NCBI GenBank assembly: GCA_019115845.1
Contig: DXCU01000030.1
Coordinates: 1 to 64,000, forward strand
Reading direction: 5' to 3'
Origin: Candidatus Rubneribacter avistercoris
Lineage (GTDB): Bacteria > Actinomycetota > Coriobacteriia > Coriobacteriales > Eggerthellaceae
DNA: 64,000 bases
Shown here: positions 18,502-44,296 of the stretch, piece after piece
How the letters are laid out: every line of letters begins with the position of its first letter
Position numbering within the stretch: position 1 is the first letter of the stretch
Translations under genes and position numbers: made by a program
The notes under the pieces: model-generated
The model's input: only the letters and a program-made list of their open reading frames with translations
The model's database searches: none
Told to the model about the DNA's origin: nothing

Positions 18502-18533
18502 ATTGTCGCTATGTATTGGTACATTGCGACAAT
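18502..18533. promoter_or_regulatory. Operator class A, site 1
   Basis: ATTGTCGC-tATGTAttggTACATt-GCGACAAT, two nested inverted repeats, 92 bp upstream of the NrfD-like gene. Confidence 0.72.
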
Positions 18534-18624
18534 GAGGCAATGCAGGCGCCGTCTGCAGGGCCGGGGCTTCGGAGGACCCGGCGCTCGTGCGGCGGCGCAC
18601 TCGAACGGGGGATGCGGGGTGCGC

Positions 18625-19560
18625 ATGTTCAGCATGCTCGTGACGGGGTATCTGTTTCTTGGCGGCGTTGGGGGCGGCGCGCTTGTGGTGCTCTCTGCGC
18701 TCGAATGCGCGAACGTGCGCTCGCGCTGGCCGGGGCCGCCTGCCGAGCCGCTTCGGCTCGAGCGTGCGCTGCGCCTTCCCAACGAGTTCTTCGCGCGGGC
18801 CTGGCCCGTGTGCGCGGTGTCGCTTGCCGCCGGCATGCTGTGCCTGCTCGCTGATCTGGGCCGTCCGGACCGCGTGATCAACTTGCTGGTCACGCCCACG
18901 CCCTCCGCCGTGGCTGTGGGGGCCTACGCGCTCGCGGCGTCGCTTGCCTGCTCGTGCGCGTTCGCGTGGCTGGCGCTCTCAGACGGTCCGAACCCGCGCC
19001 GCGGCGCGGCGGCGGCCCTGGCCGCAACGGGTGTTGCGTCGGGCTTGGTCACCGTGACGTACGCGGGCGTGCTGCTGCAGAGCCTGGCTTCGGTGCTGTT
19101 TTGGAACACGCCGCTGCTGCCTGCGCTGTTCGCCCTGTCGGCGCTCTCGTGCGGGGCGGCGTGCGTGTTTCTGGCGGCGGGGTTCACAGAAGCGCGCTTT
19201 CCGGCGGGGCCGCCGGTTGCGCACGTGGCGCGCGCGGACGGGGTGCTTGTGGCGGTGGAGGCGCTGTGCCTGGCCGCGTACCTGGCGTGGGCGCTCGGCG
19301 GCGAAGGCACCGCGCCGGCTGCCGAGGCGCTGGTCGCCGGCGAGTTGGCGCCGCTGTTCTGGGGCGGCGTGGCGGCGTGCGGGCTTGCGGTTCCGTTCGT
19401 GCTGGAGCGGTTCTTGGTGCGCGATGGTCGTCGCTCTCAGATGCTCGGGACGGCTGCGTGCCTGCTTGCGGGCGGGTTCGCGCTGCGCTGCTGCATGGTG
19501 GGGGTTGCCGTGTACGATGTGACGCAGATGCCGGGCGCGCTGTTCGGCTTGGCGATGTGA
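18625..19560 (+). CDS. NrfD/DmsC-like membrane anchor subunit, stand-alone (cassette 1)
   Basis: FSMLVTGYLFLGGVGGGALVVLSAL, LCLLADLGRPDRVINLLVTPTPSAVAVGAYAL; multi-TM; no adjacent catalytic subunit. Confidence 0.75.
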   Translation: MFSMLVTGYLFLGGVGGGALVVLSALECANVRSRWPGPPAEPLRLERALRLPNEFFARAWPVCAVSLAAGMLCLLADLGRPDRVINLLVTPTPSAVAVGAYALAASLACSCAFAWLALSDGPNPRRGAAAALAATGVASGLVTVTYAGVLLQSLASVLFWNTPLLPALFALSALSCGAACVFLAAGFTEARFPAGPPVAHVARADGVLVAVEALCLAAYLAWALGGEGTAPAAEALVAGELAPLFWGGVAACGLAVPFVLERFLVRDGRRSQMLGTAACLLAGGFALRCCMVGVAVYDVTQMPGALFGLAM

Positions 19561-19575
19561 GGAAAGGGCGGAAGC

Positions 19576-20565
19576 ATGGGAGATGGAAGGCTCGACCGGA
19601 CGGCAGGAGGCGTTGCGCGCGACTCGTTCGGCAAGGAGGCGGCGATGCGCTCTGACGCGTCGTACGTGCCGCGCAAGTCGTCGCGCAACGGGGCGCTCAT
19701 CTTCGGCATCGCGGTGTTCGCGGTCGCCTGCGCCGCGGTGCTGGCGGTGGCGCAGCTTGCCTTCGGGCGCGTGGGCTTCGGCGCGGTGGCGGCCATGCTG
19801 CTGGTCGGGCTTGCGGCGGTGTCGTCCGTTCACATCGCGCTTTCCTGGGAGAAGGTGGTGGTGCTGCGGCTGGGAAAGGTGAACCGCGTGGTGGGTCCGG
19901 GTCCGTACTTCACCATCCCCGTCATCGAGCATGGCACCATCCGCGTGGACCAGCGCACCATCGCCACGCCGTTTTATGCGGAAAAGACGCTGACGGCCGA
20001 CCTGGTGCCCGTCACCGTGGACGCCGTGCTGTTCTGGGTGGTGTGGGATGCCGAGAAGGCGTGCACCGAGGTGGAGGACTACTACGCCGCCGTTTCGTTT
20101 CTGGCGCAGACCGCCCTGCGCGAGGCGGTGGGCCGCTCGACGGTGGCCGAGGTGGCGCTGCGCCGCGATCAGCTGGACATGGAGATAGAGCGGGACATCG
20201 AGAAGGAGGCGGCCGGCTGGGGCGTGGACATCATATCGGTGAAGGTGCGCGACATCGTCATCCCCGACGATTTGCAGGAGGCCATGTCGCTTGAGGCGCA
20301 GGCCGACCGCGAGCGCAACGCGCGCATGACCGTGGCGGGCGCGGAGGCGGAGCTGGCGGAGATGCTGGCCGAGGCGGCGCGCGTTTACGGCGATCCGGAC
20401 GCGGCGCTCAAGCTGCGCACGATGCTCATGCAGTACGACACGGTGCGGAAGTCCGGAGGGGCCGTGGTCACGGTGCCCTCGTCGTTCTCCGACGGGTTCG
20501 CGGACGCGGGCGAACGGTCGGGTTCGCCGTCAGCGGCGGCTTCTTCGAAGGGCATTGGGCGTTGA
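19576..20565 (+). CDS. SPFH/Band 7 slipin-family membrane protein (cassette 1)
   Basis: SWEKVVVLRLGKVNRVVGPGPYFTIPVIEHGTIRVDQRTIATPF, VTVDAVLFWVVWDAEKACTEVEDYYAAVSFLAQTALREAVG. Confidence 0.88.
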   Translation: MGDGRLDRTAGGVARDSFGKEAAMRSDASYVPRKSSRNGALIFGIAVFAVACAAVLAVAQLAFGRVGFGAVAAMLLVGLAAVSSVHIALSWEKVVVLRLGKVNRVVGPGPYFTIPVIEHGTIRVDQRTIATPFYAEKTLTADLVPVTVDAVLFWVVWDAEKACTEVEDYYAAVSFLAQTALREAVGRSTVAEVALRRDQLDMEIERDIEKEAAGWGVDIISVKVRDIVIPDDLQEAMSLEAQADRERNARMTVAGAEAELAEMLAEAARVYGDPDAALKLRTMLMQYDTVRKSGGAVVTVPSSFSDGFADAGERSGSPSAAASSKGIGR

Positions 20566-20594
20566 TCTGCTATCATAAGGCGGAGAGCAATCCG

Positions 20595-21008
20595 ATGAGG
20601 GACACGCCTATGAATCCGCTTGCGACATTCGAGATAGACCATGGCAGCGGCCTGCCCGTATGGGTGCAGGTGAAGAACCGCATTGCGTACCTGATAGGAT
20701 CGGGCGGGTTCGAGGTGGGCGCCCAGCTGCCCACGGTGAGGTCGCTGGCCGTCGATCTGGACATCAGCTACAACACCGTGAGCCGCGCCTACATGGACTT
20801 GGAGCGCGAGGGTTACATCTCCACGCACAAGGGCAGGGGCACGTTCGTGGCCGATCGGCACGAGCTGGGCGCGGCCAACGCGTCGGACAGCTCGCTTGAG
20901 CTGGCGGTGGACGAGATGATACGGGCGTGCATGGCCGCTGGCTTGAACGACGACGACGTGGTGGCTTTGGTGGAGGCGCGTTTGAACCATCGCAAGATGG
21001 CGAAGTAG
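20595..21008 (+). CDS. GntR-family regulator, short YtrA-type (cassette 1)
   Basis: GLPVWVQVKNRIAYLIGSGGFEVGAQLPTVRSLAVDLDISYNTVSRAYMDLEREGYISTHKGRGTFV. Confidence 0.88.
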   Translation: MRDTPMNPLATFEIDHGSGLPVWVQVKNRIAYLIGSGGFEVGAQLPTVRSLAVDLDISYNTVSRAYMDLEREGYISTHKGRGTFVADRHELGAANASDSSLELAVDEMIRACMAAGLNDDDVVALVEARLNHRKMAK

Positions 21009-21063
21009 AGGCGAAGGACGAGGCTGGCGGGCTGCGCGCCCGTCGCGAAGAAAGGGGACGGAC

Positions 21064-21741
21064 ATGGCGGAACCGACGCAAGGCGCAACTGCGGAGGCGA
21101 ACGCGGGCGCCGAGGCGTGGCAGGCGAGGGCGGCGGCGTGCGAGCTTTTGGCCCTGAGTCTGCGTTACCCGGGCGAGGAGTTGGTGGGCATCGTGTCCTC
21201 GGGCGAGTGGGCCGATGCCGCGCGCGAGATAGCGGGGGCGCTGGGGCTTGCGTTGCCGAAGGGCTGGGCCGACGACGTGCGCGACGTTGAGCTGCATGCG
21301 CTGCGCGCCGAGGCGACGCGCCTGTTCGTGGGCGCTCCCCAGGCCGCATGCAGCCCGTACGAGGGCATGTGGCGCGCCCAGGACGACGGCGTGCAGCCGC
21401 TCATGTTCGTGAACCCGCACACGATGGCCGTCGAGCGCTTCTGCAAGGCGTGCGGCCTTGGGCAGGCGAAGGGCGGCGCCAACGACCCGCTCGACCACAT
21501 TGCCACGGAGTTCGAGCTTCTGCAGTACCTTGCCTCCATCGAGGCCGGCATCGCGCAGCCCTACGAGCAGGGGCCGGATGCCGAGGCGTTCCCCGGCGGC
21601 GGCGCGGGCGCGGCCTACGACGAGTTCGTGGCCGATCACCTGCGCACCTTCGCCCCGCGTTTCGCCGAGAAGCTTGAGGCCGAGGCGCGCGTTTCCTACT
21701 ACCGCGCCGTCGCGCAGCTGCTTGCGGCGTACGTGCGGTAA
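21064..21741 (+). CDS. TorD/DmsD-family molybdoenzyme chaperone
   Basis: LRAEATRLFVGAPQAACSPYEGMWRA, DPLDHIATEFELLQYLASIEAG, DHLRTFAPRFAEKLEAEA. Confidence 0.85.
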   Translation: MAEPTQGATAEANAGAEAWQARAAACELLALSLRYPGEELVGIVSSGEWADAAREIAGALGLALPKGWADDVRDVELHALRAEATRLFVGAPQAACSPYEGMWRAQDDGVQPLMFVNPHTMAVERFCKACGLGQAKGGANDPLDHIATEFELLQYLASIEAGIAQPYEQGPDAEAFPGGGAGAAYDEFVADHLRTFAPRFAEKLEAEARVSYYRAVAQLLAAYVR

Positions 21742-21756
21742 GGCGCGCCCGCCGAA

Positions 21757-21799
21757 GCGCGCGGCGTCCCCCGAGTGTGGGACGCCGCGCGCTTTTTTT
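21757..21799 (+). terminator. Intrinsic terminator
   Basis: GCGCGCGGCGTCCC-8 nt-GGGACGCCGCGCGC-TTTTTTT. Confidence 0.88.
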
Positions 21800-21871
21800 G
21801 GAGATGCGCTCTGCTTGTGATCCGCGGACTGCGGCAGGGGCGCACCTGACGCAGGCGCTATAATGCGGTTG

Positions 21872-21903
21872 CATCATTGTCGCACTATGTTGCGACAATG
21901 ATG
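21872..21903. promoter_or_regulatory. Operator class A, site 2
   Basis: CATCATTGTCGCA-ctatgt-TGCGACAATGATG, perfect 13-bp arms. Confidence 0.78.
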
Positions 21904-21977
21904 GACGCCGAGCAGGCCGCCGAAAGGCGGGCGGCAGACAGGTTGCACGATGCAATCCGATGGGGGACGGTGGCGAT

Positions 21978-23369
21978 ATGAACGATGCTCAACAGACGCA
22001 GATTCCTCGTTGCGGGAAGGATCGCAATCCGGCGCTTCGCAGGGCGTTGGAGCTGTATCAGGGCATAGAGGCCGACCACATGCGGGTTCTGGAAAGCTCC
22101 GGCGTGTCGTTCGCCCCGTATGACGAGGAGCGCCGAGAGGCTCGCCTGCTTATGGCGCAGCTTGAAAAGAAGGGCGCGCGCATTCGCAACGGCGGGGCGA
22201 GCGTTGCGCGGGGCCATTTGAGCCGTGGTTGCCTTGCGTGCACGGGTTCGTGCGTGAGCCGCACCTACGCCCTTTCGAACAACTGCCACCGGGACTGCTT
22301 TTTCTGCTTCAACCCCAACCAAAAAGGATTCGCCTACTATTGCGACAACCCGTTTCCCTGGCGCGAACAACTCGACGAGCTGGCGCAAGGCGATCGGCCT
22401 CCGGCGTGCGTGGCGCTTTCCGGCGGGGAGCCTTTGCTGTATCCGGACGAGGCGTGCGCGTTCTTCGCGCGGGCGCGCGAGCTGTTCCCCGCATGCCATC
22501 TGCGCATGTACACGTCGGGGGACCTGCTCGACCGTGAGTTGCTGGCCCGCCTGCGCGATGCGGGGCTGGACGAGATCCGGTTCTCGGTCAAGCAGGACGA
22601 TCCGGACGACATGCAGGAGCGGGTGCTTGCCAACATGGAGGCTGCGCTTGGGTTCATCCCGACCGTCATGGTGGAAATGCCGCCCATTCCCGGCACGGAA
22701 GACCAGATGAAAGAGCTTTTGGTCCGCCTCGACCACATGGGGGTGCACGGGATCAACCTGCTGGAGTTCGCGTACGCCATGTGGAACTGGCCGGTGTTCG
22801 AGTCGTTGGGCCTCACGCTCAGAAACCCTCCGTGCCACGTGCTTTACGACTACGAGTACGCGGGCGCGTTGGCGGTGCAGGGAAGCGAGGAGCTGTGCCT
22901 GCGCCTCATGCTGTGGGCATGCGATCAGGGTCTTGAGCTGGGGATGCACTATTGTTCGCTCGAAAACAAGCATCGCGCCCAAATCCGGACCATCAACGGG
23001 CGGCACGCTTCAATCGATCGCCGTTACGCTTTCGATTACGGGGACTTCTTCATGAAGGCCGGCGTGGTGTTCGGGCCGGATCGGACTGCGGTGCGCGATG
23101 CCCTCAAAGCGCAGGGATGCGCTGATTTCCTGGAAGACGAGGAAGCCGATTCGACGTCGTTTCATCCGAAGTGGCTGGAGGCGGCGTCGCGGGTCCGTGC
23201 CGGCGATGGCGTTTGCGTCCAGCCGTGCGTCTCGTCCAATGTCGTGGTGGAGCGAGAGGGCGGGCTTGCGTTGCGGGAGCTCAAGCTCGAGTTGCTGTCG
23301 AAGGCCCCCGCAGTGCAGCTTGACGACGCCACGGCCCGCGCCGACCGGGCGGCGGGCGACGTTCTGTGA
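21978..23369 (+). CDS. Radical SAM enzyme with extra N-terminal cysteine cluster
   Basis: CHRDCFFCF (CX3CX2C), SGGEPLLYPDEA, CLACTGSC and C-terminal cysteines (CVQPCVSS). Confidence 0.83.
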   Translation: MNDAQQTQIPRCGKDRNPALRRALELYQGIEADHMRVLESSGVSFAPYDEERREARLLMAQLEKKGARIRNGGASVARGHLSRGCLACTGSCVSRTYALSNNCHRDCFFCFNPNQKGFAYYCDNPFPWREQLDELAQGDRPPACVALSGGEPLLYPDEACAFFARARELFPACHLRMYTSGDLLDRELLARLRDAGLDEIRFSVKQDDPDDMQERVLANMEAALGFIPTVMVEMPPIPGTEDQMKELLVRLDHMGVHGINLLEFAYAMWNWPVFESLGLTLRNPPCHVLYDYEYAGALAVQGSEELCLRLMLWACDQGLELGMHYCSLENKHRAQIRTINGRHASIDRRYAFDYGDFFMKAGVVFGPDRTAVRDALKAQGCADFLEDEEADSTSFHPKWLEAASRVRAGDGVCVQPCVSSNVVVEREGGLALRELKLELLSKAPAVQLDDATARADRAAGDVL

Positions 23370-23427
23370 TGTGGCGACGGAGGCTTCCGCACGTTTTACG
23401 CAAATAAAGGTCCATTCCATCATCTTA

Positions 23428-23481: not shown

Positions 23482-23509
23482 GGGGAGCCTGCTTTGGTTC
23501 TATCTCCTG

Positions 23510-28370: not shown

Positions 28371-28410
28371 GCGATGCCGCTGTGCTTATCCTGAAAATAG
28401 AATAACCTAA

Positions 28411-28434
28411 ATTGTCGCAATGTATTGCGACAAT
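28411..28434. promoter_or_regulatory. Operator class A, site 3
   Basis: ATTGTCGCAAT-gt-ATTGCGACAAT, 11-bp perfect arms; same 24-nt overall spacing as the core of site 2. Confidence 0.78.
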
Positions 28435-28567: not shown

Positions 28568-31120
28568 ATGTCGGAGTTGAAAGTCCCCGAACGGGGAATC
28601 TCTCGCAGAAGCTTTCTCAAAACGACGGCCGCCGTGGCCGGAGCCGCCGCAGTGGGCGGATCCGCGGCTCCAACGATGACCGCGCTTGCCGCCGACGAGC
28701 AGAAGGGACAGCCGTCCGAAGAAGAAGTGGTATGCGTATGCGGCTGCAACTGCCAGGGGACGTGCTCGCTTGTCGCGACGGTGCGCGAAGGCAAAATGGT
28801 CAACATACGCTCGAACGAGAACATACCGTATCCGGCGTACGAGCGCATCTGCAACCGTGGTTTCAGCCATGCGAACCGTCTGTACGATTTCAACCGCGTG
28901 AAGTATCCGCTGAAGCGCGCGACGTGGAGCATCGAGGATCCGCACGTCGAGAACCGCGGCAACGACGAGTGGGAGCGCCTGTCGTGGGACGATGCCGCCA
29001 AGCTCGTCGCTGACACGCTGAACTACAACACCGAGAATTACGGGCCCCGGTCCAATCTGTTCCTGTGCTCGGCGGGCAACTCCTTCGGTGTGTACGGAGG
29101 GTCGTTCACGGGCAACAGCTTCGCCAACGTGAACGGCTACACAACGCTCGACGTGTGCTTGGACTACGGCGACCTGCACGGCATTGGCCAGGTGACCGGC
29201 GGTGGCTGGGATTTCAATCAGCGCAACATGTCGGGCGACTATCGCTTTGCCAAGACGCTGTTCATCTGGGACACCAATCCGCCGAACTCCCAACCCCACA
29301 ACTGGCACTTCTGCATGGAGGCCAAGGACGCCGGTGCGAACCTGGTGGTCATCGATCCCACCTACACCATTGCGGCCGCTCAAGCGACCAAGTGGGTGCC
29401 CATCAAGCCGGGCACCGATCCGGCGCTGGGCATAGCCATCCTGAACGCGATCATCGAAAACGAATGGTTCGACCTTGACTTCTTGCGCGACAAGACGTGC
29501 GCGCCTTTGCTGGTGAGGGAGGACAACGGGCACTTCCTGCGCTCCACCGACTTCGGCGAGAACGGCCCCGAGGAGCTGCCCGAGTACCCGTTCTCCGGCA
29601 TGCTGCTCCTTCAGTCCTCGAAGGCGAACAAGGTGCCCACGGTCGAGGCCACCGCGCACTACGTGGTGTGGGACGCCGATTCCAACACCTCCTGCGGCAT
29701 CAACGAGACGGCGAATCCCGCTCTCGAGGGGCGCTACGAGGTGAACGGCGTGAAGGTGACCACCGCCTGGACGCTGCTCAAAGAGCATCTGGCCGAATGC
29801 ACGCCCGAATGGGCCGAGAAGATCACCGAGGTTCCGGCCGACACCATCGTGGAACTGGCGCGCATGTACTCGCAGGACACCCCTTCGACCATCTACGCCG
29901 GTTACCATCTTTACGACAATTGCGAGGTCATGGGCATGACGTGGGCCACCATGGCGGCGCTCACCGGCAACATCGGCAAGAAGGGCGCCTCCATCGGGCA
30001 TCTCGGCAAAGACAAGCCCTACCTGAATCGCTCGCCAGATCTGTTCCCCAACGGCTTGAAAGGTCTTGCGAACGACATTCCGTGGCTTGCCTTGAGCGAG
30101 ATATTGGAGACGGGCCAGTACATGGGCAAGGAGTTCCCCGTCCGCCTGCTGTACAACGTTGGGGCGAACCCGGTGGGCAGCTACGCCGCCCAGAGGCGGA
30201 TCATTGAGGAGATGCTTCCTAAAATCAACTGCATTGTCACGAACGACCTCGAGTTCTCCGACACCGTGCACTACAGCGACATAGTGCTGCCGTGCACCCA
30301 CTACTTCGAGTACGAGTGGATTCAGGGCGCCTCGCACGTGCCGTTCATCAACCATGCGAACAAGGTTGTGGAGCCTATCGGGGAGGCCAAGGAGGACGTC
30401 GACATCTTCCGCGAGATCTCGAAATATCTTGACAACGAGGCGTGCACCAAGTTCTACTCCAAGACGAACGAGGAGATGATGCGCGTCATCGTGGACACGG
30501 CGGCTGGCGAGAAGCTGGGCATCAGCCTGGACAACCTGCGCAAGGAGGGCGTCATCGCCGACCGCGAGGAGAACTGGATTCACTGGGAAGACCAGCGGTT
30601 CCCCACGCTTTCGGGTCGCTTGGAGTTCTACGTGGAGAATCCCGGCGCGCGCATCAACATAGGCAAGCCCATCGACAAGGAGTTCTATCACCTGCCCACC
30701 TACCATACGCCGGACGAGGCGCACGACGAGAGCGAGGAGCACAAGAAGTACCCGCTGTACCACTACTGCGAGCGCACGCGCTGGCACATGCATACCCAGT
30801 TCAACTACGCGCCCATCCTGCGCGAGTTGGATCCGGAGCCGTATCTGCGCATGAACCCCGTCGACGCCGAGAGCCGCGGCATCGCGGAAGGCGACTACGT
30901 GGAGGCCTACAACGACCGCGGGCACTGCGTGTGCAAGGCGAAGTTCGACATGGGCGTGCGGCCCGGCATGGTGTCGTCGCCTAAGGGCTGGCCGCGCGAG
31001 CTGTACGTGGCGGGCAGCTATCAGGAGCTGACGAACGACCATCTGAACACCATGCATCAGAACACCTCGTTCGACGACACGCTCGTCGAGGTGCGCAAGT
31101 ACGAGGGAGAGGTGGAGTGA
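28568..31120 (+). CDS. Mo-bisPGD (DMSO reductase family) oxidoreductase, Tat-exported catalytic subunit 1
   Basis: RBS aggaggagga; Tat signal ISRRSFLKTTAAVAGAAAVG; FeS motif CGCNCQGTC; molybdopterin-binding LLYNVGANPVG and C-terminal MoCo-binding domain. Confidence 0.92.
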   Translation: MSELKVPERGISRRSFLKTTAAVAGAAAVGGSAAPTMTALAADEQKGQPSEEEVVCVCGCNCQGTCSLVATVREGKMVNIRSNENIPYPAYERICNRGFSHANRLYDFNRVKYPLKRATWSIEDPHVENRGNDEWERLSWDDAAKLVADTLNYNTENYGPRSNLFLCSAGNSFGVYGGSFTGNSFANVNGYTTLDVCLDYGDLHGIGQVTGGGWDFNQRNMSGDYRFAKTLFIWDTNPPNSQPHNWHFCMEAKDAGANLVVIDPTYTIAAAQATKWVPIKPGTDPALGIAILNAIIENEWFDLDFLRDKTCAPLLVREDNGHFLRSTDFGENGPEELPEYPFSGMLLLQSSKANKVPTVEATAHYVVWDADSNTSCGINETANPALEGRYEVNGVKVTTAWTLLKEHLAECTPEWAEKITEVPADTIVELARMYSQDTPSTIYAGYHLYDNCEVMGMTWATMAALTGNIGKKGASIGHLGKDKPYLNRSPDLFPNGLKGLANDIPWLALSEILETGQYMGKEFPVRLLYNVGANPVGSYAAQRRIIEEMLPKINCIVTNDLEFSDTVHYSDIVLPCTHYFEYEWIQGASHVPFINHANKVVEPIGEAKEDVDIFREISKYLDNEACTKFYSKTNEEMMRVIVDTAAGEKLGISLDNLRKEGVIADREENWIHWEDQRFPTLSGRLEFYVENPGARINIGKPIDKEFYHLPTYHTPDEAHDESEEHKKYPLYHYCERTRWHMHTQFNYAPILRELDPEPYLRMNPVDAESRGIAEGDYVEAYNDRGHCVCKAKFDMGVRPGMVSSPKGWPRELYVAGSYQELTNDHLNTMHQNTSFDDTLVEVRKYEGEVE

Positions 31121-31771: not shown

Positions 31772-32977
31772 ATGAGCGAGACAACTAACACTCCCGCCGT
31801 CAAGGGCGGGAAGGGCCTGACTATTGCCATTGCGGTGGCGGCCGTGGTGACGGTGGCGGGCATCGCCCTTTGGGGGATGCAGCTTTCCGGCGGCATGGTG
31901 CAGACCGGCATGCGCAACCTGGACTCGTGGGGGCTCTACATCACGATGTTCATGTTCTTCGTGGGGCTTTCGGCCGGCGGCCTCATCATCAGCTCGGTGC
32001 CCAAGGCCTTCGGCATGGAGGGCTTCGGAGGAATCTCCAAGGTGGCCGTGTGGACGAGCATCTGCTGCACGGTGCTCGCCATCGGGTTCGTGGTGGTGGA
32101 CCTGGGCCAGCCCTTCCGGATGTGGGAGCTGTTCGCCTACTCCAACTTGAGCAGCCCGCTCATGTGGGACATCATCGTGCTGGCGACCTACCTTATCTTG
32201 TCGGTCGTGTATCTGTGGGCGCAGCTGCGCGCGGAGGCGGGCAGGGTGTCGGCTGCGGCGTTGCGCGTGGTGAGCGTGGTAGCGCTCGTGTGCGCGGTGC
32301 TCGTGCACAGCGTGACGGCGTGGATCTTCGGGTTGCAGCAGGCCCATGAGTTTTGGCACACCGCCCTTTTGGGTCCGTGGTTCGTGAGCTCGGCGCTCGT
32401 GTGCGGCACGGCGCTCGTGCTCGTGGTGGTGATCGCGCTGCGGCGCGCGGGGTACCTGGAGCTGGAGCAGCGCTATGTGACGCGTCTGGCCAAGATGCTC
32501 GGCGCGTTCGTGCTCGTGGACCTGTACTTCTTCGGCTGCGACCTTCTGACGAGCGCATTCCCTGAAGGAAGCGGTGCGGAAGTGGTGGCTATGCTTACCA
32601 CCGGCTCGCTTGCACCCTTCTTCTGGGCGGAGATCGTTGGGTGCGCGCTCGCGGCGGTCGTCTGCTTCGTTCCGTCGCTTCGCACGAACCCCCTTATTGT
32701 GGTGGCAAGCTTGCTTGCTATCGCGGGGATCTTCTGCAAGCGCGTGCAGCTTCTGGTGGGTGGCTTCCAAATCCCCAACGTTGACTATGCGTTTCAGACT
32801 AACGCCCTGACAGTTACAAACTGGGAGGGCGGCTTTGAGGCGGCCTACCAGGGCATGGTGTATTGGCCAACCGCCCTTGAGCTCGGCGTGGCGCTGGGTA
32901 TTTTGGGTCTGGGCGCGCTCATGTTGTGCGTCGGCCTGAAGTTCCTGCCGCTTAAACAGGCTGAAAACGTGCACTAG
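31772..32977 (+). CDS. NrfD-family membrane quinone-interacting subunit
   Basis: LDSWGLYITMFMFFVGLSAGGLIISSVPK, VHSVTAWIFGLQQAHEFWHTALLGPWF. Confidence 0.9.
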   Translation: MSETTNTPAVKGGKGLTIAIAVAAVVTVAGIALWGMQLSGGMVQTGMRNLDSWGLYITMFMFFVGLSAGGLIISSVPKAFGMEGFGGISKVAVWTSICCTVLAIGFVVVDLGQPFRMWELFAYSNLSSPLMWDIIVLATYLILSVVYLWAQLRAEAGRVSAAALRVVSVVALVCAVLVHSVTAWIFGLQQAHEFWHTALLGPWFVSSALVCGTALVLVVVIALRRAGYLELEQRYVTRLAKMLGAFVLVDLYFFGCDLLTSAFPEGSGAEVVAMLTTGSLAPFFWAEIVGCALAAVVCFVPSLRTNPLIVVASLLAIAGIFCKRVQLLVGGFQIPNVDYAFQTNALTVTNWEGGFEAAYQGMVYWPTALELGVALGILGLGALMLCVGLKFLPLKQAENVH

Positions 32978-33036: not shown

Positions 33037-33393
33037 ATGATTCGAAGGATCCTCATAACGTTAGGTGTCTTTGTGCTGGCAGGGGTGCTGACTTACGGAG
33101 CGGGCTTGCTTGCAGAGCCGACGACGGGGATCGCCCCCATCGAGGCGGACACGCCCTGCCCGGCCGCCGGGTGCGCTTCGGGGGAGTGCCACGGGTTCGA
33201 TAATGTGCCCGAGCCCGACGGCGTGCACGAGATGTCCTGCCCCGAGGCAAGCTGCGCGAGCGTGGAGTGCCATGCGTGGGACTCGCTCGTGGGCCGCTAC
33301 CACCAAGCGAGCGATGCCAGCTTGAACGTGTGGATTTTGGCCCCCGTGGCGCTCGTGGTGGGGCTGGTGCTGATCGTGCGGAAGGTGAGGTGA
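33037..33393 (+). CDS. Small bitopic membrane protein with two CX4CH motifs (candidate non-canonical c-type cytochrome or metal-binding protein)
   Basis: N- and C-terminal TM helices flank CPAAGCASGECHGFD and CPEASCASVECHAWD; RBS GGGGAGG. Confidence 0.75.
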   Translation: MIRRILITLGVFVLAGVLTYGAGLLAEPTTGIAPIEADTPCPAAGCASGECHGFDNVPEPDGVHEMSCPEASCASVECHAWDSLVGRYHQASDASLNVWILAPVALVVGLVLIVRKVR

Positions 33394-33398
33394 GGGGA

Positions 33399-33857
33399 AT
33401 GGAGAAAAAGCGGCTCGTCCTTGATGGCGCCGCGCTCGTCCTCTACGCGCTCGCCGCTCTTCCCGCGTTCACGGGAATCGCGGCCCATGAGTGGCTTTCG
33501 CTCGCTGCGATCGCCGTGCTGCTCGCTCATTGCGTTGCGGGCTTGGGCGGGGTGGCGGGGGGCGGGCTGCTCCGCCGCTCGCCCTCCTGGACGGCTCATC
33601 TGGCGCTCGACGGGCTGATCCTTGTCGTGCTGGCTGTCTGCGCCACATCGGGCATCATGGTGTCCGGCGCGGCGCTTCCGGCGCTCGGCCTGCACGCGAC
33701 CGGCTACTTCTTCTGGGACCCTTTGCACGCGGTCTCGGCCAAGGCGCTCTTGGCGCTGCTGCTCGTGCACGTGGCCCTGCACGCGGGCTGGGTGGCCGCG
33801 AGCGTCCGGAGGGAGGGGCGCGTCCGGAGGGAGGGGCGGCGCCGCGAAGGCTCGTGA
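33399..33857 (+). CDS. DUF4405-like b-type cytochrome membrane protein
   Basis: 4 TM helices with His in IAAHEWLS, LLAHCVAG, WTAHLALDG, LLLVHVALHAGW. Confidence 0.7.
   Translation: MEKKRLVLDGAALVLYALAALPAFTGIAAHEWLSLAAIAVLLAHCVAGLGGVAGGGLLRRSPSWTAHLALDGLILVVLAVCATSGIMVSGAALPALGLHATGYFFWDPLHAVSAKALLALLLVHVALHAGWVAASVRREGRVRREGRRREGS
33802..33837 (+). repeat. 18-bp tandem duplication at the 3' end of the cytochrome gene
   Basis: GCGTCCGGAGGGAGGGGC x2. Confidence 0.9.
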
Positions 33858-34371: not shown

Positions 34372-34388
34372 GATTGTCTTATGATAAT
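34372..34388. promoter_or_regulatory. Operator class B, site 1
   Basis: GATTGTCTTATGATAAT, 15/17 identical to GATTGTCATATGATTAT at 39819. Confidence 0.6.
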
Positions 34389-34484
34389 CCGAGACAGCGC
34401 GTAGGCGCGTCCTCGCGGGGTTCGCGTTCGCGCGTAGGCGGGCTTGCATGCGCATCTGCGTCGGGAGATAAGGAGGGCGGGGCA

Positions 34485-35465
34485 TTGTTCGGGCCGCTGG
34501 TCGTGTGCTACCTGTTCCTCGGCGGCGCCGGTGCGGGCGCGCTTTTCGTGTCGTCCGCGCTCGCTCTGCTGTCGCCTGCGGACGCGGTGTCGCAGCCCGC
34601 ATTGCGTCGGCGGGGCGGCGGCGTGCGCATGGTCGTCGAGCTGCCGCAGCCCTATCGCCTGCTCGTCGCTCCGGGTGCGGCGGCGGGGCTTGTCGCGCTC
34701 GGAGCGGGCGTGACGTGCCTGCTGGCCGACGTGGGACGCGCCGACAGGGTGGGGCTTTTGCTCGCGAATCCGGCGTTCACGTACGTGGCGGCGGGAACAT
34801 GGGCCCTTGTTGCCTGTTCTGGCCTGGGCGCGGCCTTGCTTGCGGCTTGGACGGGGTGCGTGCGGCTTTCCCTGACGGCGGTTCGTGTGCTCGAGGTTGC
34901 CCTGCTTGCGGCCGCGTTCGTGGTCATGGTGTACACGGGGTTGCTGCTTCGGGACATGGCGGCGGTTCCTCTGTGGGCCACGCCGTGGCTTCCGGCCCTC
35001 TTCGCGCTTTCCTCGCTTTCGTGCGGGACGGCCCTTGTGCTTGCCGCAGGTCAGTTCTCCGGTGCCGCCCGTTTGTTCGGCCGAGTGTTTCGGCGGCTTG
35101 CGTTCGCGGACGCCGTTGCGATCATCCTTGAGATTCTGGTTGCGGCGGCGTACGTGGCCGTCGTCTTGGGCGTTGCGCTGCCGGGCGCCGTGTCGGTTCC
35201 CGAGGACAGCGGAACGCTTGAGGCGTTGGCGGCTTCGGCCCAAGCGCTCACGGCCGGATCCGCTGCGTGGGCGTTCTGGGGCGTGTTCGCGGTGGGCGGC
35301 TTGGCGGTTCCGCTTGCGCTGGATGCGGCTTTCGCACGCGGGCGCGCCGCGCTCAAGCCGCGTGCGGTGCTGGCCGCCTCGGCGTGCGTGCTGGCGGGCG
35401 GCCTCGCGTTGCGCTATTGTGTGGTCGAGGCCGGTCTGCACCCGGTGCTGCAAACCATGATGTGA
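34485..35465 (+). CDS. NrfD/DmsC-like membrane anchor subunit, stand-alone (cassette 2)
   Basis: TTG start after AAGGAGG; LFGPLVVCYLFLGGAGAGALFVSSAL, CLLADVGRADRVGLLLANPAFTYVAAGTWALVA; paralogous to 18625-19560. Confidence 0.75.
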   Translation: MFGPLVVCYLFLGGAGAGALFVSSALALLSPADAVSQPALRRRGGGVRMVVELPQPYRLLVAPGAAAGLVALGAGVTCLLADVGRADRVGLLLANPAFTYVAAGTWALVACSGLGAALLAAWTGCVRLSLTAVRVLEVALLAAAFVVMVYTGLLLRDMAAVPLWATPWLPALFALSSLSCGTALVLAAGQFSGAARLFGRVFRRLAFADAVAIILEILVAAAYVAVVLGVALPGAVSVPEDSGTLEALAASAQALTAGSAAWAFWGVFAVGGLAVPLALDAAFARGRAALKPRAVLAASACVLAGGLALRYCVVEAGLHPVLQTMM

Positions 35466-35483: not shown

Positions 35484-35966
35484 ATGGAGAAGGGCGCCTT
35501 TCCTTTCGAGGTGGACGAGACGACCGACGTGCCTTTGTGGGTGCAGCTGCGTCAGAGGCTCGTCTACCTGATCAACACCGGCTACTTCAAACCGGGCGAT
35601 CAGCTGCCCACGGTGCGCGGCTTGGCGTCGGAGATTTCCATCAACTACAACACGGTGAACAAGGCGTACCTCAGCCTGGTGTCCGACGGCTACCTGGAGT
35701 CCACGCGCGGGCGCGGCGTGTTCGTGCGCGATCTGGACGCCGAGGTGGACAAAGAGTATGCCGAGGAGGTGGACGGGCTGCTGGAGGACTGCGTGACGGC
35801 CTGTCGCGATCTGGGGCTTTCCTTGGACGACGTGCAGGCTCGCATGGCGCGCAAGATCAAGCAGCTGAAAGCCGCCGAGGGAAAGGGCGGCGCGGATGCG
35901 GACGGGGCGGGCCGCATCGTCTGCGTTGAGGTGCCCAAGGCGAAAGGCGGCGCGCGCGGCGCGTGA
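35484..35966 (+). CDS. GntR-family regulator, short YtrA-type (cassette 2)
   Basis: DVPLWVQLRQRLVYLINTGYFKPGDQLPTVRGLASEISINYNTVNKAYLSLVSDGYLESTRGRGVFV. Confidence 0.9.
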   Translation: MEKGAFPFEVDETTDVPLWVQLRQRLVYLINTGYFKPGDQLPTVRGLASEISINYNTVNKAYLSLVSDGYLESTRGRGVFVRDLDAEVDKEYAEEVDGLLEDCVTACRDLGLSLDDVQARMARKIKQLKAAEGKGGADADGAGRIVCVEVPKAKGGARGA

Positions 35967-36063: not shown

Positions 36064-37086
36064 ATGGGCTTTGGGAGAAAAGGGGAGCGCGAGGCTCCAA
36101 TGAGGATGGGCTCGAGCGCAGGCGGGCAGTCCGGCCGCGCGACGGGCGGGCGCGGGTCGTGGGCCGTCGTGCCCGACGCGAATACGGAGATGGCGGGCGA
36201 GCGCGCGTCGAGCGCGGGCGTGCTGCTGTTCTCCGCAGTGGTGTTCACTCTGGCGTTTTTCCTGGTTTTGGGCGCGTCGGCGCTGATCACGGGCCGTGTG
36301 GGGCTGCTTGGCGTGGCGTGCGCCCTGGTGGCGGCAACGTTGGCCGCCATGTCGGTGCACATCGCGCAGCAGTGGGAGAAGGTCGTGGTGCTGCGCTTCG
36401 GCCGCTTCAACCGCGTGAGCGGGCCGGGCTTGTTTTGGACGTGGCCCATTATCGAGCAGAACACCATGCGCGTGGACGGCCGCGTGCGCGTGACCACGTT
36501 TGGCGCCGAAGAGACGCTCACGGCCGACCTCGTGCCGCTTGACGTGAACGCTGTGCTGTTCTGGCATGTATGGGACGCGAAGGCGGCCTGCACCGAGGTG
36601 GGCGATTTCACGCGCGCCGTGGAGCTGGCGGCGCAAACGGCGCTGCGGGACGCCATCGGGCGCGGAGGGGCCGCCGAGGTGGCCATCCGCCGCGAGCAGT
36701 TGGACCGCGAGCTCAAACGCGCGCTCGAAGAGAAGGTGGCGCCCTGGGGCGTGGCCATCCTCTCGGTGGAGGTGCGCGACATCCTGGTGCCGAAGGACCT
36801 GCAGGACGTGATGTCGCTTGAAGCCCAGGCCGAGCAGCGTAAGAAGGCGCGCATCATCCTCATGGAGGCCGAGCAGGACATCTGCGAGATGATGGGCGAG
36901 ATGGGCGACGCCTACGCCAAAAACGATGCCGCGCTGCGTCTGCGCTCGATGCATCTTCTCTACGAAAGCGTGCGTGAAACCGGCGGCACCGTGGTGGTGC
37001 CCAGCAGCTTTAGCGAGGGCTTCGGCGACGTTTTGGGCGATGCCGCGAAGGACGCGCTTTCGGTTACTCGGAGCAGCGCAGGATGA
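36064..37086 (+). CDS. SPFH/Band 7 slipin-family membrane protein (cassette 2)
   Basis: QWEKVVVLRFGRFNRVSGPGLFWTWPIIEQNTMRVDGRVRVTTF; paralogous to 19576-20565. Confidence 0.88.
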   Translation: MGFGRKGEREAPMRMGSSAGGQSGRATGGRGSWAVVPDANTEMAGERASSAGVLLFSAVVFTLAFFLVLGASALITGRVGLLGVACALVAATLAAMSVHIAQQWEKVVVLRFGRFNRVSGPGLFWTWPIIEQNTMRVDGRVRVTTFGAEETLTADLVPLDVNAVLFWHVWDAKAACTEVGDFTRAVELAAQTALRDAIGRGGAAEVAIRREQLDRELKRALEEKVAPWGVAILSVEVRDILVPKDLQDVMSLEAQAEQRKKARIILMEAEQDICEMMGEMGDAYAKNDAALRLRSMHLLYESVRETGGTVVVPSSFSEGFGDVLGDAAKDALSVTRSSAG

Positions 37087-39736: not shown

Positions 39737-39796
39737 CGGCAATCAATCCCGGAACGTTCCACCAATACTATCTCCAAAATAGGATAATCATAGGAC

Positions 39797-39837
39797 AAAT
39801 AATCATATGACAATCCTTGATTGTCATATGATTATTT
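39797..39837. promoter_or_regulatory. Operator class B, site 2 (19-bp perfect palindrome arms)
   Basis: AAATAATCATATGACAATC-ctt-GATTGTCATATGATTATTT. Confidence 0.8.
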
Positions 39838-40032
39838 CGTATAGTGTGCCCAGTGGGATTCGGCCGATTCTCGCAAGGAACGGAGGTATCCCCACGCTCA
39901 TTCCGCTGCTGCGGGGCTTGCGCCGGTTTGCGCGCATCGTCTTGAAGAGGACGCTGCGTCGCCTGGCCGCTTCAAGCCGAGCGGAAGCGGGGAAGGGCGG
40001 CACGGGGGACCTGGCAGAACCGAGGAGGAAAC

Positions 40033-42459
40033 ATGTCAGGAGCAACGAGTCCGCACGGCGGACTGACGCGAAGGGGCTTTCTCAAGGCAACCGGCGCTGC
40101 GGCCGGCGCGCTCGGTCTGGCCGGCGCTGCGGGCATGACCGGCACGGACGACTGGCTTGCGCCCGCGCAAGCGCATGCGGAGCCGGAGGAGCGCATCGGC
40201 TACACCTTCCACCAGAACCATTGCACGGGCCACTGTTCCCTGAAGTGCACGGTGAGGGACGGCCGCCTGTGCTTGATCGAACCGAACGACGCCGAAGGGT
40301 ACGACAAGCGCTACCGCATCGCCTGCGTGCGGGCGATGTCGGAGATCGAGCACGTGTACGGATCCGAGCGCATCCAGACCCCGCTCAAACGCGTCGGCGA
40401 GCGCGGCTTAGGCGAGTTCGTGTCCGTCACCTGGGACGAGGCATTGGCCGAGATCAAAGACAAGCTGGGGTCCATCTGGGAGAAGTACGGCAAGAGCGCC
40501 GTGGTCGTTGGGGGAACGTCCGACGTGAAGGTTCGCTACCCCCATCTCAAGCAGATATTCAGCGCGCAGCAAGACGGGCGCAACGGCATCGACATCGGCG
40601 TGGGCAACGGGCTTGGCCCCATGATCGGCGACACCACGTCCAACGTCATCTGCACGAGCGAGGCCCGCGACTGGGCACGCGCCAAGACGGTGATTCTGAC
40701 CAGCACGAACTTCTTGGAGTCGAGCGTCCCCTCGGCCAAGACGTTCTTCGAGGCGCAGGAGGCCGGCGCCTACATCGTCTCGGTGGACACGCATTACACC
40801 ACGACGGCCGGCAAGGCCGATCAGTGGGTTCCCATCGAGCCGGGGACGGATGGCGCCCTGTTTCTGGGTATGATCAGCTGCATCATCGACAACGGGTGGT
40901 TCGACGAGGAGTCGATGAAGGAGGGAACGTCGTTCCCGTTCTTGGTCGACGAGGAGTCAGGCGCGATGCTCAGGAGCGATCCGTTGTCGGCCACGGCCAA
41001 GCAGAAAGGCTCCGAGAACCCCTTCATGGTATGGGATGCGGCAACCGGCGCGCCCCGACCCTACCAGGAAGCCGTCGATCCTGCACTCGAGGGCGTCTAC
41101 GAGGTTGACGGCAGGACGTACGCCACGGTGTTCGAGCTGCTCAAGCGAAGCCAAAAGGAAAACGGCTACACGCTGACCTGGGCGTCGGAGAAGACGACCG
41201 TTCCCGAAAAGACCATCGAGGACCTGGCCCGTCGCTACGCGCTTGACACGCCCGCCACGCTCTCGCTTGGTTGGGGCGGGTCCGACAAGTACATGAACTC
41301 CGACATCTGCGGGCACGCGGCGGGCGTTCTGGCTGCGCTGACCGGCAACTACGGCAAGCCGGGCGCAAGCGTGGGCGTGCACGTGGGTGGAAACTATACT
41401 GGCTGGTCCGCCAAGCTGGCCTCTTGGCCCCTGCCTGGCGAGTACAAGGTGGCCGACCAGGAGATGCCCTCTTACAGCATGCGTCACCAGGAGAACAGCG
41501 TGCGCGCCTACGTCGCGCTCGGCGACATGTTCCAGCAGCACTACGCGAACATGAACGTCACCAAAGAGTGGCTGCGCTCGCTCGACTTCATCGTGTACAT
41601 CGACATGTACCACGTGGAAAGCGCGAACTGGGCCGACATCGTGCTGCCGGCGTGCACCAAGTTCGAGACCACGGAGGAGGCCGAGTCGCTGAAGGTGGGC
41701 TACGGGCATCTGCTCTTGCAGGGGAAGGTGCTCGATCCGCTCTTCGAGAGCAAGCCGGACCTCGAGATCGAGCGCTTGCTCGCGCAGGCGATGGGCGTGG
41801 CCGACGGCGTGCTTCCCAAAAGCTCCTACGAGTTCTGCGAGTACCAGATAGCCAACTCCACCGACAAGAAGCTCGCGGGGATGACGCTGCAAAAACTCAT
41901 CGACAACCAGGGGGTCCTGCCCTTGCCGGGCATCGACCAAATCCGCGAGGAGTACGCCTCCCAGGTGGCGAAAACCGCTTCGGGCCGATTCGACGTGTAC
42001 TTGGAGGGCAGGCTTGGGGCTGGGCAGGCGCTTCCCGTGTACGAAGATCCCGAGGAGGCGTATCAGGGCTGCGAGCTGCGCAAGACCTACCCGCTGCAGT
42101 TCTACCAGGCGCGCACGAAGTTCCAGATACATAGCATGTTCTGCGACGCCCAGTGGATCAAGGAGTTCTACGAGCCGCATCTGGAGATGAACCCTGCGGA
42201 CATGGAGCCGCGCGGGCTTGCCCGCGGGGACGTGGTCGAGGTGTTCAACGACCGCGGTTCCATCCAGGTGGAGGTGCGTCCCTCCGAGTCCGTGCGGCCT
42301 GGCTGCACGCGCATCTTCGAGGGCATTTGGACGAAGTACATGGTCAAGGGCAACCTCCAAGAACTGACGAACGACAACCTCTCGCCGCGTGACGACATCT
42401 TGCAGATGGGGACGTCCATCGCGTTCCAAGACACGCTCGTGGAAGTTCGGAAAGCGTAG
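40033..42459 (+). CDS. Mo-bisPGD (DMSO reductase family) oxidoreductase, Tat-exported catalytic subunit 2
   Basis: Tat signal LTRRGFLKATGAAAGALG; FeS motif HCTGHCSLKCTVRDGRL; C-terminal molybdopterin-binding domain. Confidence 0.92.
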   Translation: MSGATSPHGGLTRRGFLKATGAAAGALGLAGAAGMTGTDDWLAPAQAHAEPEERIGYTFHQNHCTGHCSLKCTVRDGRLCLIEPNDAEGYDKRYRIACVRAMSEIEHVYGSERIQTPLKRVGERGLGEFVSVTWDEALAEIKDKLGSIWEKYGKSAVVVGGTSDVKVRYPHLKQIFSAQQDGRNGIDIGVGNGLGPMIGDTTSNVICTSEARDWARAKTVILTSTNFLESSVPSAKTFFEAQEAGAYIVSVDTHYTTTAGKADQWVPIEPGTDGALFLGMISCIIDNGWFDEESMKEGTSFPFLVDEESGAMLRSDPLSATAKQKGSENPFMVWDAATGAPRPYQEAVDPALEGVYEVDGRTYATVFELLKRSQKENGYTLTWASEKTTVPEKTIEDLARRYALDTPATLSLGWGGSDKYMNSDICGHAAGVLAALTGNYGKPGASVGVHVGGNYTGWSAKLASWPLPGEYKVADQEMPSYSMRHQENSVRAYVALGDMFQQHYANMNVTKEWLRSLDFIVYIDMYHVESANWADIVLPACTKFETTEEAESLKVGYGHLLLQGKVLDPLFESKPDLEIERLLAQAMGVADGVLPKSSYEFCEYQIANSTDKKLAGMTLQKLIDNQGVLPLPGIDQIREEYASQVAKTASGRFDVYLEGRLGAGQALPVYEDPEEAYQGCELRKTYPLQFYQARTKFQIHSMFCDAQWIKEFYEPHLEMNPADMEPRGLARGDVVEVFNDRGSIQVEVRPSESVRPGCTRIFEGIWTKYMVKGNLQELTNDNLSPRDDILQMGTSIAFQDTLVEVRKA

Positions 42460-42469
42460 GTGATCGACG

Positions 42470-43087
42470 ATGACTCGATACGGAATGGCGATTGACGTGC
42501 GGCGTTGCATTGGATGCCAAACCTGCGCGCTGTCGTGCAAGATGCAAAACGGGGTGCCCGAAGGCATGCTGTGGAACCGCGTTTTGACGGAAGGGTCGGA
42601 CGAGATCGACGGGGCGCAGGGCGTCTATCCTCATCTTTCGCGGGCGTATTTGCCTATCGCCTGCCAGCACTGCGAGAACCCCGCGTGCCAGCGCGTGTGC
42701 CCCACGGGCGCCACGTACAAAGACGACAAAGGCCGCGTGGAGGTAGACTACGACAAGTGCATCGGGTGCCGCATGTGCATGGCGGCCTGCCCCTACAACG
42801 CGCGCGTGTTCAACTGGAACGAGCCGGTGCGCGACCCTGATTTCAACTACGGCGACAAAGATGTGCCCGTGCGCCCCAAGGGCGTGGCCGAGAAGTGCAC
42901 GCTGTGCAAGGAGCGCACCGACCGGGGCCAAGAGCCCATGTGCGTGCAGAACTGCCCGTTTGAAGCGCGCATATTCGGCGATCTGGACGACCCGGATTCC
43001 GAGGTGTCGCGCATCATCCGCGAGCGGAACGCGTATGTGCTGTTGGAAGAGCAGGGCACGCGCCCGCAGGTTCACTACTTCAACTAA
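42470..43087 (+). CDS. 4Fe-4S ferredoxin-type electron-transfer subunit (DmsB-like)
   Basis: CIGCQTCALSCKMQN, CQHCENPACQRVCPTGA, CIGCRMCMAACPY. Confidence 0.92.
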   Translation: MTRYGMAIDVRRCIGCQTCALSCKMQNGVPEGMLWNRVLTEGSDEIDGAQGVYPHLSRAYLPIACQHCENPACQRVCPTGATYKDDKGRVEVDYDKCIGCRMCMAACPYNARVFNWNEPVRDPDFNYGDKDVPVRPKGVAEKCTLCKERTDRGQEPMCVQNCPFEARIFGDLDDPDSEVSRIIRERNAYVLLEEQGTRPQVHYFN

Positions 43088-43099
43088 GGAGGTGCGTCA

Positions 43100-44296
43100 A
43101 TGGAAACTTCGGCGAAATTCAAAGCGGCTGCGGGCGTGTTAGGCGTGCTGACGCTGGCCGGCGTGGCGGCGTGGATCTATCAGCTCATGTTCGGCCTGGG
43201 TGTAACAGGCATGAGCAACGCCACGTCGTGGGGCCTCTACATCACCATGTTCATGTTCTTCGTGGGGCTTTCGGCGGGCGGCCTCATCGTGGCTTCGTCG
43301 GCCAGCGTGTTTCACGTGGCGCAGTACAAGAAGGTGGCGCTGCCGGCGGTCATCCTGTCCACGGTGTGCATCTGCTGCGCGGGCATGTTCGTGCTCATCG
43401 ACCTGGGCGGCATCCAACGTGTGTGGCGCATCGTCACGGGGCCGAACCCTGCCTCGCCCTTGTTCTGGGACATCTGCGTGATCTCCATCTACCTGGTCAT
43501 CAACGTGGTGTATCTGGTGCTCATGAAGCGCCACGGCGTTGACAGCCCGGCCGTCTCGCGCGTGTCGCGCTTCGCGCTGCCGGTGGCCATCCTCGTGCAC
43601 AGCGTGACGGCGTGGATCTTCGGCCTGGAGATGGCCAAGGAGGGTTGGTATTCGGCCATCATGGCGCCCATCTTCGTGGCGAGCGCCATGGATTCGGGCT
43701 TGGCGCTTCTGCTGATCGCGCTTGCGGGTTTGCGCAAGGCGGGCGTGCTGGCGGTCGATCAGAAGCTGTTCGCGAACTTGGCCGGCCTTCTGGCCACCTG
43801 CATTGCCGTGGACGCCTTTTTCATCGGCTGCGAGATTCTGACCATGGCGTATCCGGGTGCCGCCGGTGCCGAGACGCTCTCCATCATGGCCACGGGCGCC
43901 ACCGCCCCCTTCTTCTGGTTCGAGATCTTGGCGGGGTTGCTCGTGCCGTTCTGCATCCTCGTGTTCGCGCGGAACCGCCAGCGCACGGGCCTGGTGGTGG
44001 GCGCCGGCGCGTTGGTGATCCTGGGCGTGCTGTGCAAGCGCGTGTGGCTTTTGCTCACGTCGTTCGTGGAGCTGAACGTGGCGGGCGCGCCGGGCGTTTC
44101 GCTTGGCACGCAGGCGGCGCAGCAGGGCGGATCCGGCATGTGGGTGCTCGTCGGCGCGTATGCTCCCACCTGGGTGGAGGTCGTTGTGGCCGTGGGCGTG
44201 GTGTCCTTGGGGGCGCTCGCGTTCATGGTGCTGTGCCGCGCGCTGTTGTCCGGCGGAAAGCAGGCCGTGCCCGATGCCGCAGCTGCGGCGGCGTAA
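43100..44296 (+). CDS. NrfD-family membrane quinone-interacting subunit
   Basis: SWGLYITMFMFFVGLSAGGLIVASSASVF, VHSVTAWIFGLEMAKEGWYSAIMAPIF; paralog of 31772-32977. Confidence 0.9.
   Translation: METSAKFKAAAGVLGVLTLAGVAAWIYQLMFGLGVTGMSNATSWGLYITMFMFFVGLSAGGLIVASSASVFHVAQYKKVALPAVILSTVCICCAGMFVLIDLGGIQRVWRIVTGPNPASPLFWDICVISIYLVINVVYLVLMKRHGVDSPAVSRVSRFALPVAILVHSVTAWIFGLEMAKEGWYSAIMAPIFVASAMDSGLALLLIALAGLRKAGVLAVDQKLFANLAGLLATCIAVDAFFIGCEILTMAYPGAAGAETLSIMATGATAPFFWFEILAGLLVPFCILVFARNRQRTGLVVGAGALVILGVLCKRVWLLLTSFVELNVAGAPGVSLGTQAAQQGGSGMWVLVGAYAPTWVEVVVAVGVVSLGALAFMVLCRALLSGGKQAVPDAAAAAA

Follow-up and report, generated by a model that had tools for sequence, protein, structure and literature searches.

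Bacteria of the family Eggerthellaceae use dozens of molybdenum (Mo) reductases to transform drugs, polyphenols and host molecules, and switching is known for few of these, via LuxR proteins with 12 transmembrane segments (12-TM). A stretch of 64,000 nucleotides from a member of this family, Candidatus Rubneribacter avistercoris (GenBank assembly GCA_019115845.1, contig DXCU01000030.1, positions 1 to 64,000; hereafter the window), carries two cassettes that each encode a short NrfD-like membrane protein, a stomatin-type SPFH protein and a YtrA-type GntR regulator. Each regulator is predicted to control its own cassette and a partner Mo-reductase operon through operators that are specific to its clade and that follow the regulator rather than the enzyme.

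Several described systems resemble parts of this arrangement. YtrA regulators are without an established ligand, and YtrASa of Sulfolobus acidocaldarius (PDB 6SBS) resembles the cassette GntRs in its short C-terminal domain with no known ligand, its operator over the transcription start and its small regulon, which consists of its own membrane-protein operon and one other locus (PMC4494728, PMC6746942). The membrane partners of YtrASa are uncharacterised, however, and most bacterial YtrA genes accompany ABC transporters (PMC4494728), whereas the cassette GntRs are partnered by NrfD and stomatin, have a respiratory Mo operon as predicted target, carry a near-invariant cysteine and occur in many paralogous modules per genome. 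The 12-TM LuxR proteins of Eggerthella lenta (DadR, HcdR and CadR; PMC9734109), from the same family, are also membrane-linked regulators with many representatives per genome, some controlling single Mo enzymes. They differ in being activators that hold membrane and DNA-binding domains in a single polypeptide, while the cassette has a separate soluble predicted repressor and a two-protein membrane partner. The PsrC/NrfD/DmsC anchors (PDB 2VPW; ActC) share the NrfD fold and supply the best structural matches of the NrfD1 model, but in the main architecture described below no catalytic or iron–sulphur (FeS) partner is encoded with the cassette NrfD, and a separate long NrfD belongs to the enzyme operon. 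Stomatins and slipins (PDB 3BK6, 9WMJ), along with QmcA and HflKC, share the Band_7 domain and stomatin-type sequence of the cassette SPFH protein, which is set apart by an extended N-terminal hydrophobic region and by its constant NrfD and GntR neighbours. Finally, the SPFH protein Cac6 of the E. lenta cgr cluster, compared here by description only, also lies beside a reductase locus and was noted as possibly interacting with the reductase, its function not being given (PMC5953540). The cac genes differ in comprising a LuxR-type regulator, a predicted flavin-dependent reductase and proteins of unknown function, and an NrfD–GntR pairing is not reported for them (PMC5953540). No report combining NrfD, SPFH and GntR was found in the openly searchable literature; subscription journals lay outside this search, and such absence is not proof of novelty.

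The two cassettes differ in gene order: NrfD1, SPFH1 and GntR1, then TorD, in cassette 1, and NrfD2, GntR2 and SPFH2 in cassette 2. An earlier note, made from the sequence alone, had given these genes, places and orders, and domain hits (PF03916, Band_7/SPFH and GntR) agree with it throughout, TorD after GntR1 included. The genes are as follows.

18619..19560, + strand: NrfD1, short NrfD-like membrane protein of 313 residues (PF03916, E=1e-26; GTG start, ATG at 18625 possible)
19576..20565, + strand: SPFH1, stomatin-type SPFH protein (PF01145; start at 19576 or 19645)
20562..21008, + strand: GntR1, YtrA-type predicted repressor (PF00392; start at 20562 or 20595; conserved Cys112 in the C-terminal helix)
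21064..21741, + strand: TorD/DmsD-like chaperone (PF02613)
34485..35465, + strand: NrfD2, short NrfD-like membrane protein of 326 residues (PF03916, E=2e-20; TTG start after AAGGAGG)
35484..35966, + strand: GntR2, YtrA-type predicted repressor (PF00392)
36064..37086, + strand: SPFH2, stomatin-type SPFH protein (PF01145; start uncertain, the open reading frame beginning at 35896)

Domain profiles and structure matches uphold all three protein identities proposed in that note: YtrA-type GntR, stomatin-type SPFH and NrfD fold. Both GntR1 and GntR2 score above the PF00392 cut-off, the mark of the N-terminal winged helix of the YtrA subfamily, and both match YtrA-type structures over their full length (3neu, 4ham, 4r1h and 6sbs, the last being YtrA). 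The subfamily is further marked by a reduced C-terminal domain, two helices of about 50 residues in all; in the AlphaFold2 model of GntR1, the winged helix is followed by helices 100–114 and 119–136, in agreement with this. The cysteine of the C-terminal helix is kept in 127 of 133 cassette GntRs and is an alanine, as aligned, in 3neu, the nearest solved homologue. SPFH1 is closest to stomatins among solved structures (170 bits, against about 50 bits for HflK/C), and SPFH2 is 50% identical to it in alignment. The AlphaFold2 model of NrfD1, with a mean predicted local distance difference test (pLDDT) score of 88, has as its best Foldseek matches ActC of alternative complex III and PsrC with menaquinone. 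Open reading frame translations and domain searches agree that both window cassettes are devoid of catalytic and FeS subunits. The pairing with a four-cluster FeS subunit in the same operon, expected of the NrfD/PsrC family, is therefore absent from them; it is present in some related loci, among them L058, L078 and L079.

Palindromic sites are conserved in the promoters of the GntR's own cassette and of its partner Mo operon. The earlier note had described a class A palindrome common to cassette 1, a radical SAM gene and Mo operon 1. The pattern ATTGTCGC-N8-GCGACAAT is indeed exact before the latter two, at 21876-21899 and 28411-28434, with a chance expectation in the window of 0, while the copy at cassette 1 has a spacer of 16 bases instead of 8. 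The class B sequence ascribed to cassette 2 and Mo operon 2 was found in exact copies at both (34372-34388; 39799-39815 on the − strand and 39819-39835 on the + strand). The sites, to which no strand is assigned, are listed below.

18502..18533, unstranded: class A site of cassette 1, ATTGTCGCTATGTA-ttgg-TACATTGCGACAAT, the spacer lying between 8-base cores
21872..21903, unstranded: class A site before the radical SAM gene, CATCATTGTCGCA-ctatgt-TGCGACAATGATG
28411..28434, unstranded: class A site of Mo operon 1, an exact pattern match
34372..34389, unstranded: class B site of cassette 2, GATTGTCTTATGATAATC, conserved in GntR clade 11 cassette promoters
39784..39837, unstranded: class B sites of Mo operon 2, a 41-base inverted repeat at 39797-39837 with 19-base arms plus a third, degenerate copy

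Both classes are essentially unique in the 3.2-Mb genome and not scattered through it at random. Whole-genome pattern searches placed intact class A sites only in the window, the next best having 2 mismatches, and returned no further copy of class B with fewer than 3 mismatches. The class A site of cassette 1 is conserved among the cassette promoters of GntR clade 13, mostly just downstream of TATAAT, and the site before the radical SAM gene is kept in only some relatives. The predicted operators of class A cassettes generally sit just downstream of TATAAT and those of Mo operons sit in the promoter region, their position relative to −35 and −10 being judged by eye; across genera the operators are conserved and the flanking DNA is not. 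These positions are most simply read as repression by occlusion. A 47-base palindrome with perfect 23-base arms covers the clade-4 cassette operator of one related locus (L054), on the minus strand near position 9,000 and upstream of NrfD.

The cassette is widespread in the family. Its SPFH subfamily is present in 91 of 138 genomes of Eggerthellaceae, with up to 12 copies per genome, in Eggerthella, Gordonibacter, Adlercreutzia, Raoultibacter, Slackia, Paraeggerthella, Parvibacter and other genera. Complete cassettes also occur in two other families of Coriobacteriia, while the rest of Actinomycetota has only generic single-copy SPFH relatives (at most 211 bits, against 350–540 for the subfamily). 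About 120 loci were read, and neighbours were counted around the 109 SPFH genes that have 5 kb or more of flank on each side. The constant neighbours are NrfD, GntR and Mo genes: NrfD adjoins SPFH in 107 of 109, a Mo catalytic subunit (MoA) gene lies within 9 kb in 108 of 109, and GntR was called in 96 of 109, a frame overlap having hidden it in both missed cases that were re-read. Adjacency of NrfD, SPFH and GntR thus recurs across Eggerthellaceae and is not peculiar to one strain. The window genome itself holds seven cassettes, with seven SPFH genes and exactly seven cassette-type GntRs (at least 138 bits; the next scores 81).

The GntR proteins form clades that match gene order, and each clade has its own operator. 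Comparing cassette and Mo promoters simply by their best shared word gave too much noise in high-GC DNA, and motifs trained by expectation maximisation, learned separately from Mo promoters and from cassette promoters and then cross-scanned, took its place. The two sets of motifs converge within each clade, on TGTCGCAA for clade 13 (that of GntR1), TTGTCNTAKGATAAT for clade 11 (that of GntR2) and TGTCATA for clade 4. In three clades, Mo-trained motifs recognise the cassette promoters of the same clade with areas under the curve (AUC) of 0.978, 0.939 and 0.933, and they assign 69 of 73 cassettes to the correct clade, against a permutation maximum of 59%. Clades 5 and 7, with small numbers of loci, yielded no learnable operator from their promoters. 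In the window genome, exact copies of TTGTCGYRCGACA are confined to two places, the clade-8 cassette promoter (contig 44) and the front of a Mo operon 22 kb away. A repeated module with such a readable operator code makes it possible to predict the regulator of each reductase, distant pairs included, throughout a family of gut bacteria.

Exchange of enzymes under constant cassettes separates the regulator from the reductase. Mo catalytic subunits were clustered independently of the GntR clades, four of which entered the test, and eight enzyme families were found under at least two of these clades, with cross-clade enzyme pairs up to 92% identical in different species. Of 51 Mo promoters in these swapped families, 50 bear the operator that belongs to the adjacent GntR clade, where the within-family permutation maximum is 41. 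Promoter similarity between enzyme pairs of 70–95% identity is 60 within a GntR clade and 12 between clades, close to a background of 11, and it is 29 for promoters of the same GntR clade whose enzymes are less than 50% identical. One example (L115) is an enzyme 81% identical to the MoA1 of the window that stands under a clade-4 cassette. Five swapped pairs become similar at the DNA level near the ribosome-binding site (RBS) and start codon, or about 100 bases inside the gene, and the similarity extends into or through the operon. Isolate genomes are the source of several swapped loci, which makes assembly error an unlikely explanation for the whole set. Because the operator follows the local GntR clade while the enzymes swap, the cassette and its operator-promoter behave as one fixed control module and the reductase as exchangeable cargo, which points to a plug-in system of respiratory control undescribed in the searchable literature. 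Such swapping would explain how reductase repertoires are rewired without loss of regulation. It also supports the proposal of the earlier note that each cassette regulates itself and its partner Mo operon: control by GntR1 and GntR2 of their own cassettes and partner operons is strongly supported at the level of sequence, since the predicted operators are clade-specific and track the regulator rather than the enzyme. In the leaders of five related loci (L060, L062, L070, L080 and L088), an inverted repeat TCCTGACA ... TGTCAGGA encloses the RBS and ATG of the Mo gene; it lies close to the start of similarity in swapped operons.

On balance, the cassette is probably an autonomous membrane-linked control module in which an autoregulated YtrA-type repressor takes its signal from the co-encoded NrfD–stomatin pair. 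Through the clade-specific operator, the GntR would repress the cassette that encodes it together with a single partner Mo-reductase operon and, in some cases, a radical SAM gene. NrfD would occupy or report the menaquinone/menaquinol pool, and a stomatin ring would organise NrfD and hold or release GntR, for which the conserved cysteine may provide a thiol switch. Derepression would then yield the enzyme operon and more of the sensor. The pair is the most likely source of the signal because GntR carries only the short YtrA C-terminal domain, without an effector domain, and the likeliest signal is the redox state of quinone, NrfD folds being quinone sites; we infer the signal itself, its direction, the contact between GntR and the membrane and the role of Cys112. 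The model gives a testable account of how YtrA-type repressors that lack a ligand can sense at all, and it may be an instance of a quinone-enzyme fold put to use in signalling. A further-reaching version is more tentative, with a little less than an even chance: the short NrfD would have been recruited from enzyme subunit to receptor and, together with stomatin, would read the redox state of the quinone pool and directly hold or release the ligand-less repressor, the cassette and promoter forming a standard site of expression where entire Mo-reductase operons are swapped in close to the start codon. If so, a reductase would gain a new control regime by recombination.

Several points weigh against the control module. 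Operator sharing between cassette and Mo promoters is weak in clade 10 (AUC 0.495, n=8), and assignment to the right clade fails for 4 of 82 Mo promoters. The loci were gathered by SPFH homology, which places free-standing NrfD or GntR relatives of other genomes outside the sample, and many come from related genomes, so that the counts are not independent events. It could also be that the SPFH protein does no more than provide an assembly platform and that NrfD is a quinone dock of a generic kind.

The Mo operons of the window are composed as follows.

28568..31120, + strand: MoA1, molybdopterin oxidoreductase catalytic subunit of dimethyl sulphoxide reductase type with a twin-arginine translocation (TAT) signal (NCBIfam TIGR03479, E=1e-97, below its cut-off)
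31117..31752, + strand: FeS subunit of Mo operon 1 (cysteine motifs in the translation; homology-based hidden Markov model)
31772..32977, + strand: long NrfD anchor of Mo operon 1, DsrP-like (NF045798, E=2e-44, below its cut-off)
40033..42459, + strand: MoA2, molybdopterin oxidoreductase catalytic subunit with a TAT signal (NCBIfam TIGR03479, E=5e-87, below its cut-off)
42470..43087, + strand: FeS subunit of Mo operon 2 (translation; homology-based hidden Markov model)
43100..44296, + strand: long NrfD anchor of Mo operon 2 (homologous to its counterpart in operon 1)

The alternative that survives best, distinctly possible though on the unlikely side, is that GntR co-regulates a membrane platform with the enzyme. 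Stomatin would form a microdomain, the short NrfD would serve as a docking point for Mo/FeS heterodimers of any kind, adding a site for quinone entry or assembly, and GntR itself would sense something else, such as a small ligand or thiol redox. In its favour, stomatin-like protein 2 is reported to be linked to mitochondrial respiratory supercomplexes, an FeS gene stands beside NrfD in some cassettes, and the near-invariant cassette NrfD residues D79, Y148, E214 and R290 are kept equally in both of the architectures that the loci display. In the main one, the Mo operon downstream of the cassette already encodes its own long NrfD (78 of 84 loci, four main clades), which counts against this alternative. 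The second belongs to GntR clades 9 and 5: the cassette lies behind the Mo and FeS genes, and the long NrfD is absent in 24 of 24 loci, leaving the cassette NrfD as sole anchor, a point in favour of the alternative. Distances between NrfD, SPFH and GntR correlate within the cassette (rho 0.41–0.60), whereas GntR and SPFH do not track MoA (rho 0.08 and 0.12). For NrfD against MoA the correlation is 0.79 in the second architecture and falls to rho 0.17 (partial 0.05) in the main clades; the global value of 0.44 was rejected as a sign of a subunit role because it comes mostly from the second architecture. In the main clades the short NrfD thus follows the regulator amid enzyme exchange, unexpected for an enzyme-specific subunit and compatible with a generic dock. 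Its roles appear to differ by architecture, given the missing long NrfD and the high correlation in clades 9 and 5: there the cassette NrfD is probably the enzyme's anchor, within the control module perhaps in addition to its sensing role, and in the main architecture it is probably not an enzyme-specific subunit, against which enzyme swapping under a constant cassette also argues where the operon has its own long NrfD.

It is unlikely that the Mo operons are mainly under other regulators, either 12-TM LuxR activators or a protein binding shared promoter elements, with GntR only fine-tuning them. One such element, U, is the dyad TATCCTNAAAATAGAATAA upstream of the predicted GntR operator, and it is common to Mo promoters of several GntR clades.

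28387..28405, unstranded: element U of Mo operon 1, TATCCTGAAAATAGAATAA
39769..39787, unstranded: element U of Mo operon 2, with 3 mismatches

Its best genomic copies (at most 2 mismatches) all lie beside Mo operons (C79:6048, C2:19207, C44:77008 and C48:11599 in the window genome), and it is possibly the site of a common activator; the 12-TM LuxR proteins of E. lenta activate catechol dehydroxylases (PMC9734109). However, U and the further element D are general and cannot confer operon-specific control, and with a GntR operator in the promoter region at nearly all loci, some control by GntR is expected under any activator. Element D, AGAATTYGGCCRATTCT, at 39856-39870 and in many related Mo leaders, lies just downstream of the Mo promoter and is common across clades; it may be an operator or an RNA hairpin.

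Very improbably, the cassette is an evolutionary passenger of linked paralogous blocks that duplicate jointly, as several cassettes in tandem clusters clearly do, with operator similarity left over from promoter ancestry and not a sign of regulation: the operators are short islands in two otherwise unlike promoters that track the GntR clade across non-orthologous enzymes, the sites are conserved across genera where the flanks are not, and one cassette–Mo pair stands 22 kb apart.

The remaining features of the region are neighbours of these operons.

21960..23369, + strand: radical SAM protein, which accompanies many such operons (PF04055; gene orders of related loci)
33037..33393, + strand: small membrane protein with two CX4CH motifs, an unusual haem c motif, and possibly a dihaem c protein (sequence)
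33393..33857, + strand: DUF4405 membrane protein (PF14358)

The small membrane protein has no Pfam match, and its homologues are 48 open reading frames in related loci, beside DUF4405. A scan of the window with Rfam returned no known RNA element, so a known molybdenum cofactor riboswitch in the Mo leader is unsupported. Matches to the molybdopterin oxidoreductase domain number about 40 in the window genome. In the window, a transposase-like gene and two ATPase-like genes separate cassette 1 from Mo operon 1, and the orthologous loci L093 and L068 are contiguous. The transposase-like gene (490 residues, 24839-26311) was judged by eye and has the radical SAM gene on one side and Mo operon 1 on the other. 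Around the cassettes are four ATPase genes of AAA/DUF4143 appearance, likewise by eye, at 23510-24760, 26703-28076, 37064-38239 and 38507-39736.

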